Source: Streptomyces sp. DvalAA-14
GTDB lineage: Bacteria > Actinomycetota > Actinomycetes > Streptomycetales > Streptomycetaceae
Reading direction: 5' to 3'
Length of the DNA: 46,741 nt
NCBI RefSeq assembly: GCF_900091855.1
Contig: NZ_FMCH01000629.1
Location: forward strand, 1-46,741
Both the position numbers and the translations under genes were made by a program. Positions 6,599 to 44,670 of the stretch are shown piece after piece (positions within the stretch are counted from its first letter, which is position 1; each line of letters opens with the position of its first letter). The notes beneath the pieces are model-generated. The model did no database searches. It was given only the letters and a program-made list of their open reading frames with translations, and had not been told where the DNA came from.

Positions 6599-6616
6599 AT
6601 GTTCCACGTGGAACAT
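6599..6616. promoter_or_regulatory. parS-like ParB-binding site 1
   Basis: A perfect 18-bp palindrome ATGTTCCACGTGGAACAT in the gap between cydB and cydDC. Its core GTTCCACGTGGAAC differs from the Streptomyces parS consensus GTTTCACGTGAAAC by one symmetric pair of bases. Streptomyces chromosomes carry about twenty such sites clustered around oriC, used for ParB nucleoprotein assembly and segregation (established knowledge). Binding itself is inference. Confidence 0.75.
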
Positions 6617-36083: not shown

Positions 36084-36395
36084 GCCGCCCACCCGGCCCT
36101 TCCCCCGTATCGCGCGGTACTGATCCCGCCACCGCGTGCGGCCACTGCACGCCGCCACAACATGCCCTCACAACGAACCGCGTCAACCGCGACATCAGCG
36201 ATGAGCTCAACCCCGACCTCAACCCCGACCTCAACCCTGACATCAATCAATGTGACAGCGTCCACTGACATGGTCAAGACCCCCATGACCGCCTGTGGAC
36301 AACCCGCACGACCCCTACGGGGACGTCAGCCGCGAGTACTACCCGGATCCGGGCCTCCGGGCTGACGACCTGCTCTTGCGCCGCCCACTACGGTC
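36084..36395. promoter_or_regulatory. Divergent intergenic region with 12-nt repeats and a possible MerR-type promoter
   Basis: No gene is supported. Three direct repeats CTCAACCCYGAC lie at 36206-36241. At 36251-36277 the minus strand reads TTGACC, a 19-nt spacer, then CATTGA; the spacer contains two TGTCA direct repeats. A 19-nt spacer is the hallmark of MerR-controlled promoters, and a MerR gene ends the operon that would start here. The -10 match is weak, so this is a hypothesis. Confidence 0.3.
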
Positions 36396-41041: not shown

Positions 41042-41810
41042 TCTCGTCGGCGACGGCCTTCAGGTCTTCGTGGGCGTTGCCCATCGCCACGCCGTGTCCC
41101 GCCCACGCGAACATCGGTATGTCGTTGGGCATGTCGCCGAAGGCGACGGTGGCGGCGGCCGGTACCCGCAGGCGCCGCGCCGCCAGCGACAGGCCGGTGG
41201 CCTTGGTCAGTCCCAACGGCAGCAGCTCCACGATGCCGGCCCCCGCCATCGTCACCCCCACCAGATCACCGGCCGCCGCAACGGCGGCCTCGGCCAGAGC
41301 GTCGTCGGACAGGCCGCCCGCGTGCTGGATGTAGATCTTGTTGATCGGCTCGGCCCACAGCTCGCCGGGATCGGCCATCAAGGTGACGGGCAGCTCCGGG
41401 TGGTAGAGGTAGCCCGCGCCGACCAGGACCTCGCCCGCCAGGCCGTCACGGCTGGCGGCCACCGCGAGCGGACCGGCCTCCGCCTCGATCTTCTCCAGTG
41501 CCAGCGCGGCCAGCTGCCGGTCCAGCGTCACCGAGGTCAGCAGCCGGCGCGCGCCCGCGTCGTAGAGCTGCCCGCCCTGGCCGCAGACGGCCAGACCGCG
41601 GTAATCGAGGTCGTCCAGGACGTGCCGGGTCCAGGACACCGAGCGGCCGGTGACGACGATGTGCGCCGCGCCCGCCGCGGTGACGGCGGCGAGCGTGGCA
41701 CGCGAGGCCGGCGAGACGGTCCCGTCGTCGCGCAGCAGCGTCCCGTCCAGATCGGTGGCGACCAGCCGGTACGGCAGGGGGCCCGGCTCCTGGGCGCTGC
41801 CCGCGGTCAC
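40974..41810 (-). CDS. HAD-superfamily (Cof-type, IIB) phosphatase
   Basis: A 278-residue cytoplasmic hydrolase. Motif I is [13 protein letters not shown] with D20/D22, motif II is [11 protein letters not shown], the motif III lysine is in LGLTKATGL and motif IV is [14 protein letters not shown] type IIB cap lies between. GTG 41810 overlaps the serS stop (GTGA), so it is translated with serS; an association with serS is often conserved in Streptomyces. Substrate unknown. Its 3' end overlaps the rhomboid-like gene on the other strand. Confidence 0.88.
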
Positions 41811-43165
41811 TTGACGGCGGCGGAGATACCGGCGGACGTACCGGCGGCCGGGTCCGCCGACGGGCCGGCGGGGCCGCCGGTGGCCGGCCGGACCGGCTTC
41901 AGGAACTCCCGGCCGCCGAGATACGGCCGCAGCACCTCGGGTACGCGCACCGATCCGTCGGCGAGCTGGTGGTTCTCCAGGATCGCCACGATCGTCCGCG
42001 GCACCGCGCACAGCGTGCCGTTGAGAGTGGCCAGCGGCCGGGTGCCGTCGGCGTCGCGCAGCCGGATGTTGAGCCGGCGGGACTGGAACTCAGTGGTGTT
42101 GGACGTCGAGGTCAGCTCGCGGTACTTGCCCTGCGTCGGGACCCACGCCTCGCAGTCGAATTTCCGCGACGCCGAGGAGCCGAGGTCGCCGGAGGCCAGC
42201 TCGATCACCTGGAACGGCAGCTCCAGCGCGGACAGCCACTGCTTCTCCCAGGCCAGCAGCCGCTGGTGCTCGGCTTCGGCGTCCTCCGGGCGGGTACAGA
42301 CGAACATCTCCACCTTTTCGAACTGGTGGACGCGGATGATGCCGCGGGTGTCCTTGCCGTACGAGCCGGCCTCGCGCCGGTAGCACGGCGAGTAGCCGGC
42401 GTAGCGCAGCGGCAGCCGGGACGCGTCGATGATCTCGTCCATGTGGTATGCGGCGAGCGGGACCTCGGAGGTGCCGACCAGGTAGAGGTCGTCCTTCGCC
42501 AGGTGGTAGACGTCGTCCTCGACCTGGCCGAGGTAGCCGGTGCCGGCCATGGCCGCGGGCTTGACCAGGTTGGGGGTGATCATCGGAGTGAAGCCGGCTT
42601 CGATGGCCTGCGCGATCGCCGCGTTGACCAGGGCCAGCTCCAGCAGCGCGCCCACGCCGGTCAGATAGTAGAAGCGCGAGCCGGACACCTTCGCGCCGCG
42701 GTCCATGTCGATGGCGCCGAGCCGCTCGCCCAGCTCCAGATGGTCGCGGGGGGTGAAGCCCTCGGCGGCGAAGTCGCGGGGGACGCCGTGCTGCTCGAGG
42801 ACGACGAAGTCCTCCTCGCCGCCGATCGGCGTTTCCGGGTGGACCAGGTTGCCGAGCTTGAGCAGCAGTTGCTGGGCCTGCTCGGCCGCTTCGTGCTGCT
42901 CGGCGTCGGCGGCCTTCACCGCTTCGGCCAGCTCCTTGGTGCGCCTGAGCAGCTCGGCCTTCTCCTCGCCCTGCGCCTTGGGGATCAGCTTGCCCAGCTG
43001 CCGCTGCTCGGAGCGCAGCTGGTCGAAGCGGGTACTGGACGACCTGCGCCGCTCGTCGGCGGAGAGCAGGGAGTCGACGAGTGCGACATCCTCTCCACGG
43101 GCGCGCTGGGAGGCGCGCACACGGTCGGGGTCCTCACGAAGCAGGCGAAGGTCAATCACGGTCAC
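41807..43165 (-). CDS. serS: Seryl-tRNA synthetase
   Basis: A 452-residue class II aminoacyl-tRNA synthetase that charges tRNA-Ser (and tRNA-Sec where present). The N-terminal ~110 residues form the antiparallel coiled-coil arm that grips the long variable arm of tRNA-Ser. Motif 2 reads [32 protein letters not shown], and motif 3 is [10 protein letters not shown] onward to [17 protein letters not shown]-terminal extension of about 28 residues is Ala/Gly/Pro-rich and makes it longer than the usual ~425. GTG 43165 or GTG 43159 is the start. The Cof-type HAD gene overlaps its stop. Confidence 0.96.
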
Positions 43166-43267: not shown

Positions 43268-43300
43268 AAGGATCACGTCAACGCTATTGACCTGATCCTT
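43268..43300 (-). terminator. Intrinsic terminator on the minus strand
   Basis: On the minus strand AAGGATCA-G-GTCAA pairs with TTGAC-G-TGATCCTT around a 5-nt loop (13 pairs with one mismatch) and is followed by TTTTT (the stem end reads TGATCCTTTTTCGG). This is a classic rho-independent terminator, about 400 nt beyond the pheA stop and about 100 nt before the serS start, so it should stop read-through from pheA into serS. Confidence 0.75.
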
Positions 43301-43318: not shown

Positions 43319-43688
43319 TGTGGAGAACCGGAGTTGACAGGCCCTCGGAGGGCCGCCGGCGACCCTTTGCTGTGTGAGTTATCCACAGCCTCGGTGGGAT
43401 TTCCACGTCTTGTCCACAGGGTGTGGGGAAGATCTGTGGAGAAGGGTCAAGATCATTTTCCGGGGTCGATGTTCGGCTATGGATTCCCCGTTGAAACCGG
43501 ACTCACACTCTCTTTGGAGTGAGAAGTGTTCCCCCGGGAGGATTCATTGGGCGAATTGGGGTGACGTGCGTGAGCTGCGTCACTCTCACCCCGCTTGGTG
43601 TCTGTGTACCCATTTGTCGACTTGGTCGGCTTACTGTGTCGACTTGTCCGCAAGTTACCCACAGGCGGTGCGCGCGGCCTGTGGATAA
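43319..43688. other. Cluster of DnaA-box-like nonamers
   Basis: Exact matches to TTRTCCACA: TTATCCACA at 43379-43387, TTGTCCACA at 43410-43418, and on the other strand TGTGGATAA at 43680-43688. One-mismatch forms: TGTGGAGAA at 43319-43327 and 43435-43443, TTGTCCGCA at 43644-43652, TTACCCACA at 43655-43663; TGTGGGGAA at 43422-43430 is weaker. Eight candidate boxes in 370 nt on both strands is far above chance. oriC itself lies next to dnaA/dnaN, neither of which is here, so this is a separate DnaA-titration or regulatory locus; that role is inference. Confidence 0.75.
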
Positions 43689-43701: not shown

Positions 43702-44631
43702 TCAGCCGCGGCCGTCCAGCGTGCGGTTCAGCCAGTCCGCCGCCTCGCTGAACTCGATGTCGGTGGTCCCCGGCGTGACCTGAACCCCCACCTCGTCCGC
43801 CCGCGGATAGGACCCGAGGAACCGCACATTCAGACAGCGCCGCCGCAGACCCATCAGCGCCTCGCCGACCCGGCGGTCGGTCAGATGGCCTTCGGCGTCG
43901 ACGGAGAAGCAGTAGCGCCCCAGGCCCTCACCGGTCGGCCGGGACTCGATCCGGCTCAGGTTCACCCCGCGGATCGCGAACTCCTGCAGCAGTTCGAGCA
44001 GCGCGCCCGGATGGTCGTCGCGCAGCCAGAACACCGCCGAGGTCTTGTCCGCGCCGGTCGGGGACGCCAACCGGGCCGGCCGCCCGACCAGCACGAACCG
44101 GGTGGTGGCGTTCTTCGCGTCGCGGATGTCGGTGGCGAGCGGCTCCAGCCCGTACATCGGCGCCGCGAACTCGCCGGCGAACGCCCCGTCGTAGCGGCCC
44201 TCCTGCACCAGCCGGGCGCCGTCCGCGTTGGACAGCGCCGACTCCCACTGGGCCTGCGGCAGGTTCTCCGCCAGCCAGTTGCGCACCTGGGACTGCGCGG
44301 CCTGGTGCCCGGTGACGGTCTTGACGTCGGCCAGCTCCGTGCCGGGCCTGACCAGCAGGGCGAAGGCGATCGGCAGCAGCACCTCGCGGTAGATCATCAG
44401 CGGCTCGCCGAACGCCAACTGGTCCAAGGTGGCGGTGATGCCGCCCTCCACCGAGTTCTCGATGGGGACGAGCGCGCCGCCCGCCTCCCCCTTGCGCACC
44501 GCGTCCATCGCGGCGGGCACGGACACCATGGGTGTCAGCTCGCGGGTGGCGGACTCGGGCAGGGTACGCAGGGCCGCCTCGGTGAAGGTGCCTGCTGGTC
44601 CCAGATACGTATAGCGGCTCGCCGGCGACAT
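43702..44631 (-). CDS. pheA: Prephenate dehydratase
   Basis: A 309-residue enzyme that converts prephenate to phenylpyruvate in phenylalanine synthesis. The catalytic domain (about 1-190) begins YTYLGPAGTFTEAAL and ends with the active-site TRF motif in NATTRFVLVGR. A C-terminal ACT domain (about 205-285) has DHPGALLELLQEFAIRGVNL and the ESRP motif, which bind phenylalanine for feedback inhibition. There is no fused chorismate mutase. Start is ATG 44631. The terminator at 43268 and the DnaA-box cluster lie beyond its 3' end; a parS-like site is just upstream. Confidence 0.95.
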   Translation of the reverse strand: MSPASRYTYLGPAGTFTEAALRTLPESATRELTPMVSVPAAMDAVRKGEAGGALVPIENSVEGGITATLDQLAFGEPLMIYREVLLPIAFALLVRPGTELADVKTVTGHQAAQSQVRNWLAENLPQAQWESALSNADGARLVQEGRYDGAFAGEFAAPMYGLEPLATDIRDAKNATTRFVLVGRPARLASPTGADKTSAVFWLRDDHPGALLELLQEFAIRGVNLSRIESRPTGEGLGRYCFSVDAEGHLTDRRVGEALMGLRRRCLNVRFLGSYPRADEVGVQVTPGTTDIEFSEAADWLNRTLDGRG

Positions 44632-44670
44632 GGCGTCAGCCTAATGGCCGCTCGTGAGCGCCCGGCCGCT

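Follow-up and report, generated by a model that had tools for sequence, protein, structure and literature searches.

A conserved DnaA-box element between pheA and serS of Streptomycetaceae whose commonest form changes in length by whole helical turns

The gap between pheA and serS in Streptomyces sp. DvalAA-14 carries a cluster of DnaA boxes that is conserved across the Streptomycetaceae and whose commonest form keeps its parts in helical phase. We think it likely (probability of roughly 0.7) that this element is the origin-proximal DnaA-box cluster of the family and serves as a scaffold of about 320 bp for one stereospecific DnaA complex by which DnaA is withdrawn from use. It is probably the counterpart of the cluster that represses initiation in S. 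coelicolor; what is new here is the architecture of the element and its helical spacing.

Results

The element lies in a 536-nt gap between two genes on the minus strand (Table 1). The initial annotation of the window (the whole 46,741-nt stretch of DNA that was analysed) had described three exact and at least four one-mismatch matches to TTRTCCACA within 370 nt of noncoding DNA between serS and pheA, away from dnaA and dnaN. Recounting gave exactly three perfect and four one-mismatch boxes, both flanking genes were matched by profiles, and dnaA was found on another contig, C261. Read along the strand of pheA and serS, the boxes occur in the order A(+), B(-), B2(-), C'(+), C(-), D(-), E(+), with A and C 270 nt apart, and the G+C content of the element is 57%, compared to 70% for the window. 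(Note that a lone perfect box, TTGTCCACA, is present elsewhere in the window at 36294-36302, and that an inverted repeat, GGATCACGTCAA-CGCTA-TTGACCTGATCC, was spotted by eye in the 5' region of serS at 43269-43297.)

Table 1. Positions of the element, its boxes and motifs, and the flanking genes in the window
Feature	Position	Strand	Description
Whole DnaA-box element	43319..43688	.	within pheA-serS gap
Box A	43680..43688	-	TTATCCACA, perfect
Box B	43655..43663	+	TTACCCACA, 1 mismatch; inverted partner of A, 25 nt start-to-start
Box B2	43644..43652	+	TTGTCCGCA, 1 mismatch
Motif G1	43637..43645	-	AAGTCGACA, conserved
Motif G2	43612..43621	-	GTCGACAAAT, conserved
Block CAATTC	43553..43558	-	conserved
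Inverted repeat	43481..43523	-	CTCACTCCAAAGAGAGTGTGAG; includes conserved blocks GGTTT and GGAATCC
Block	43451..43461	-	GGAAAATGATC; consensus GGAATGATC
Box C'	43435..43443	-	TTCTCCACA, 1 mismatch
Box C	43410..43418	+	TTGTCCACA, perfect; inverted partner of C', 25 nt start-to-start
Box D	43379..43387	+	TTATCCACA, perfect
Box E	43319..43327	-	TTCTCCACA, 1 mismatch; present in some S-type loci only
pheA, prephenate dehydratase	43702..44631	-	NF008865; stop at 43702; flanks gap
serS, serine--tRNA ligase	41807..43165	-	TIGR00414; start at 43165; flanks gap

Chance clustering of boxes was ruled out by shuffles and by genome-wide density. The window as a whole holds 16 box matches at one mismatch or fewer, seven of them in the element, against 5.75 expected and a maximum of 14 in 100 shuffles. 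When the 536-nt gap was dinucleotide-shuffled 2000 times, the mean was 0.0075 perfect and 0.18 one-mismatch boxes, and none of the shuffles reached three perfect or seven total boxes. The genome-wide count of TTRTCCACA that had been proposed as a check gave 74 perfect boxes in 7.94 Mb (669 contigs), compared to 23 for the reversed control, so that 370 nt would be expected to hold 0.0034 perfect boxes; the Poisson probability of at least three is 7e-9, or about 1.5e-4 across all 370-nt tiles. (In the same genome, TTATCCACA and TTGTCCACA occur 18 nt apart on one strand at C3:1403, C13:39016, C24:11625 and C481:85905; these four pairs are perhaps one repeated element.) Overlap with a coding sequence was likewise rejected: a 104-aa open reading frame at 43374-43688 is mechanical, and length changes of 10-11 nt among relatives argue against a conserved frame. 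The element had no match to a known RNA in Rfam at gathering scores, and RNAalifold found no consensus fold in the spacer alignment.

We compared the orthologous gaps from three sources: a named genome scan (69 loci, S. coelicolor not among them), 31 genomes searched with serS, and 394 family genomes, 391 of which had a pheA match and from whose listed matches 30 loci and 116 further regions were taken. Collapsing gaps with identical first 400 nt left 196 loci, and 185 of these, the window included, form the Streptomycetaceae-type set, with pheA at least 70% identical to that of the window. (Note that this set contains L030, titled Mucilaginibacter and presumably a mis-binned contig, and L192, where serS is absent from the stretch examined.) The comparison had been chosen beforehand as a point at which the initial annotation could fail, and it left the proposal standing: within the first 800 nt of each gap, at least two perfect boxes are present in 185/185 Streptomycetaceae-type gaps, at least three in 146/185, and at least four boxes at one mismatch or fewer in 182/185. 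The remaining 11 of the 196 loci, from Propionibacteriaceae and their kin, carry a pheA that is 49-56% identical and lack perfect boxes, except for one locus with a single one; in four of these 11, serS was not found and the 1000 nt after pheA were scanned instead. Eleven loci from other families of the same order, with pheA absent beside serS in the stretch examined, hold no perfect and altogether two one-mismatch boxes. The named loci nearest to that of the window are mostly from Actinacidiphila.

Conservation extends to the order of the boxes. When A was taken as a perfect box and C as a box with at most one mismatch 195-320 nt away, 180/185 loci had such a pair, and the five loci without one by this rule are L041, L069, L108, L206 and L256. 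Of these pairs, 128 are S-type (the commonest form, with D), 38 are K-type (Kitasatospora-like, without B or D and with forward boxes after C) and 14 are others. Among the 128 S-type loci A and B are 25 nt apart in 103 and 23-26 nt apart in 123, and C and D are 30-32 nt apart in 124. The 128-locus consensus reveals a partner box for C in inverted orientation, C' (TCCACAGatct), and thus A/B and C'/C form two inverted pairs, each with box starts 25 nt apart. Between the pairs the consensus holds two GTCGACA motifs, CAATTC, GATCAAC, an inverted repeat, GGTTT, GGGAATC and GGAATGATC; the window's own element is without the GATCAAC block. The element is a series of ordered modules that together span about 320 bp: two inverted box pairs, box D and conserved non-box motifs.

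In the S-type the distance between the pairs varies in steps of one helical turn. In the 128 S-type loci the A-C distance peaks at 259-260, 270, 280 and 290 nt, with one locus at 301, giving a Rayleigh R of 0.79 at 10.4 nt, a phase statistic that, like the others reported here, corrects only in part for the kinship of the genomes. The C-E distances cluster at 69-70, 80-81, 91-92, 101-102 and 112-113 nt, and the boxes are in phase with the non-box blocks (R of 0.95 for A-B and 0.83 for A-C). The flanks of the element gave, at 10.5 nt, R of 0.30 from the pheA stop to A and 0.25 from D to serS, with best values at other periods of 0.42 and 0.41, respectively. Note that when all types were pooled (177 loci) the 10.4-nt peak was absent, the best R being 0.58 at 11.7, and that 29 of the 38 K-type loci measure 243-246 nt, about 14-15 nt shorter than the S-type and out of phase with it, with rarer lengths (201-202, 229-230, 241 and 251 nt) that are not all whole turns away. 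We therefore state the phase rule for S-type loci only.

The steps are distributed over the element. We measured the intervals between modules in 123 loci, these being the 128 minus L229, L232 and L260 (in which an upstream box had been taken as A) and minus two that failed the anchor score, and found that the intervals shift by about 10 or 20 nt at differing places, A-B among them. From B to G1 the interval goes from 9 to 19-20 nt; from G1 to G2, from 24 to 34-37 and 45-48 nt; from G2 to CAATTC, from 62-65 to 74-75, 83-85 and 94 nt; from GATC to the repeat, from 31 to 41-42 nt; and from GGGAATC to GGAATGATC, from 28-32 to 39-42 and 58-59 nt. The C'-C interval and two others are constant in all 123 loci. 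When interval changes were reconstructed by Fitch parsimony on a FastTree of pheA, 36 of the 37 S-type changes of at least 4 nt were whole-turn (the exception being 29 nt), at a tolerance of 1.7 nt that 34% of all sizes between 5 and 36 nt would satisfy; a further 81 changes were of 1-3 nt. These changes of at least 4 nt are spread over seven intervals, which rules out a single expanding tandem repeat.

A general bias in indel size was ruled out by two controls. Among neighbouring non-coding-like indels (length not a multiple of three) of at least 5 nt in the 40 kb adjoining the element in 11 genomes, 10/49 were whole-turn, compared to 29/30 element events under the same filter; the Fisher P of 4.6e-12 is only indicative, since samples and methods differ between element and control. 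Similarly, 7/35 changes of 4-75 nt in the efeB-pheA gap were whole-turn. (Note that the count on the tree was 23/29 as long as some upstream boxes were still taken for A, an error that had produced false steps of 12-14 nt, and that with a looser tolerance 38/68 changes from D to serS and 45/89 from the pheA stop to A were whole-turn, which is not far below the uncorrected 23/29.)

As a further test we searched the 394 family genomes with an alignment-free gapped pattern that runs from A to C' and allows every length from 243 to 273. It matched 138/394 genomes, of which 127, among the matches listed, were used. In the 89 of these that had not been fetched previously, the A-C' length was 245-250 in 72, 257-260 in 14 and 269 in three, with nothing between, although these are not 89 independent events because the genomes are mutually related and some may be of the same species as loci in the named scan. 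(For the seven rows in which the pattern had picked up the upstream box, 13 nt were taken off the length; five of these rows belong to the 89. Where one genome matched twice the longer match was discarded, as were an unrelated second match in G123 and G324, for which only the upstream-box row was listed.)

The position of the element relative to the origin can be read from relatives. In the 29 of 33 for which both positions were listed, pheA lies 75-251 kb from dnaA, and it is through these 29 that the element is seen to be close to oriC. The two genes are co-oriented in 21/29 genomes and opposite in 8/29, which suggests inversion around oriC. (The eight include Kitasatospora-like and Streptacidiphilus-like genomes.) The genome's own dnaA-dnaN gap (contig C261; L009:3226-4129) holds 14 one-mismatch boxes and no perfect one. 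This difference in box quality, with perfect boxes at pheA-serS and none among the 14 of oriC, fits the view that the element retains DnaA. The initial annotation had called the position near parS sites consistent; when 16-mers of the window were scored against a parS consensus, parS-like sites appeared at 44670 (one mismatch), about 1 kb from the element, and at 6600 and 6644 (two mismatches each).

Inverted box pairs also occur elsewhere. The pattern TCCACAG-N(8-28)-CTGTGGA is found at three places in the genome (reversed control, 0): between pheA and serS (N14), in the gap between crgA and a rhomboid gene (N20) and upstream of dnaB (N24), where the names crgA, rhomboid and dnaB come from NCBIfam and Pfam. 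Across 61 family genomes, this one included, the pattern is present at least once in all and three to five times in 49, the control giving 0-3. The crgA-rhomboid cluster (contig C526, L010:2446-2665) has four perfect boxes and one with a mismatch, and in the 14 matching genomes of 121 its lengths are 194-195, 204-206 and 214-216, that is, steps of about 10.3 nt. The cluster upstream of dnaB (contig C155, L290:2637-2725) is rigid at 88-89 nt in the 48 matching genomes of 121; note that the search pattern itself fixes its second spacer.

Discussion

Spacers that change by whole turns suggest that protein and DNA form a complex of precise shape and not a loose sponge, and such phasing indicates selection on the geometry of the element, beyond the number of its boxes. 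We propose that DnaA would most likely fill A/B, C'/C and D, and that the box pairs may be brought together by bending or looping of the DNA, probably with a DNA-bending partner, a pairing that would work only if the pairs keep their face of the helix. The resulting complex could withdraw DnaA soon after the origin region has been duplicated and so hold down initiation. The conserved non-box motifs provide named targets in the search for a partner protein.

The initial annotation had likened the locus to a cluster that titrates DnaA and limits initiation in S. coelicolor. The part of this comparison that concerns an initiation-limiting cluster near the origin fits synteny, the retention of boxes in every Streptomycetaceae-type gap, the distance to dnaA in relatives and the quality of the boxes relative to oriC. 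Plain titration leaves the phase of the spacers unexplained and can thus be no more than one part of the mechanism. For the same reason we think it unlikely that the element is a passive sponge, in which boxes count only by their number and affinity and their spacing is irrelevant. Such a sponge would account for boxes that are perfect or nearly so and better than those of the genome's own oriC, and papers that cite the S. coelicolor work do describe it as repression by a DnaA-box cluster; a sponge, however, needs no helical phase, yet nearly every spacer change is whole-turn, and the non-box blocks are conserved as well. Conservation of these blocks, GTCGACA among them, together with the parS-like site at 44670, could instead mean that DnaA is only one tenant and that the phase is chiefly due to a different protein (one of the nucleoid, or the segregation machinery acting at nearby parS). 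We regard this as quite improbable, given that the boxes keep phase with the blocks and that the DnaA-box cluster between crgA and the rhomboid gene is phased too.

Two further roles would have DnaA act at the locus in other ways. That DnaA serves here as a transcription factor for serS would suit an element upstream of the serS start, but the distance from D to serS lies anywhere between 120 and 384 nt with little sign of phasing, and the conserved part sits at the end of the element far from serS, which makes this account very improbable. We give hardly any credence to a cryptic second replication origin: several boxes and a lowered G+C content are what one might expect of an origin, but a dnaA-dnaN gap with 14 boxes is located on contig C261.

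The stereospecific DnaA scaffold that we favour could also be extended. Tentatively, and with more doubt than belief, we raise the idea that the element is an active DnaA-switching machine, an IHF-less functional counterpart of datA in which phase-locked DnaA on both pairs would loop the DNA and alter the state of DnaA (nucleotide or oligomer), and that the clusters at pheA-serS, crgA-rhomboid and upstream of dnaB would be one set.

Among known systems, the origin-proximal clusters of S. coelicolor are the closest in kind: like the element, they comprise several DnaA boxes in a noncoding gap outside oriC and near it. According to the available passages of three papers, a cluster near oriC represses untimely initiation in S. 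coelicolor and is analogous to datA (PMC4585315, PMC5742627, PMC10950094), an analogy that those passages draw without giving a mechanism. Text searches of the open-licence literature turned up no title or abstract that dealt with helical phasing in a Streptomyces cluster of this sort. The 2006 study of Smulczyk-Krawczyszyn et al. (J Bacteriol 188:6184) reportedly named the S. coelicolor clusters H69, H24 and D78, one of which is said to have a higher affinity for DnaA, and the three inverted-pair loci of the genome studied here equal that count of three.

The element resembles datA of E. coli in being a box cluster near oriC with long spacing between boxes and a geometry that matters. The arrangements differ, that of datA being +(162)+(12)- and that of the element +(25)- ... 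+(25)-(30-32)-. Moreover, datA requires IHF, whereas a search of the genome for IHF alpha (TIGR00987) gave none over the cut-off and two HU-like proteins below it. The cores of DARS1 and DARS2 in E. coli share the order +,-,- with C', C and D, but are spaced +(14)-(12)-, compared to 25 and 30-32 nt here, and DARS promotes initiation, unlike the role proposed for the element. The activity of DARS2 falls to differing degrees when its IHF and Fis sites are shifted by 5 or 10 bp (PMC4245941). With oriC the element shares many DnaA boxes but not location, the genome's own oriC lying between dnaA and dnaN on C261 and the element between pheA and serS. The two are also alike in that helical phase matters: oriC tolerates spacing changes of one turn between its boxes but is harmed by those of part of a turn (PMC4285127).
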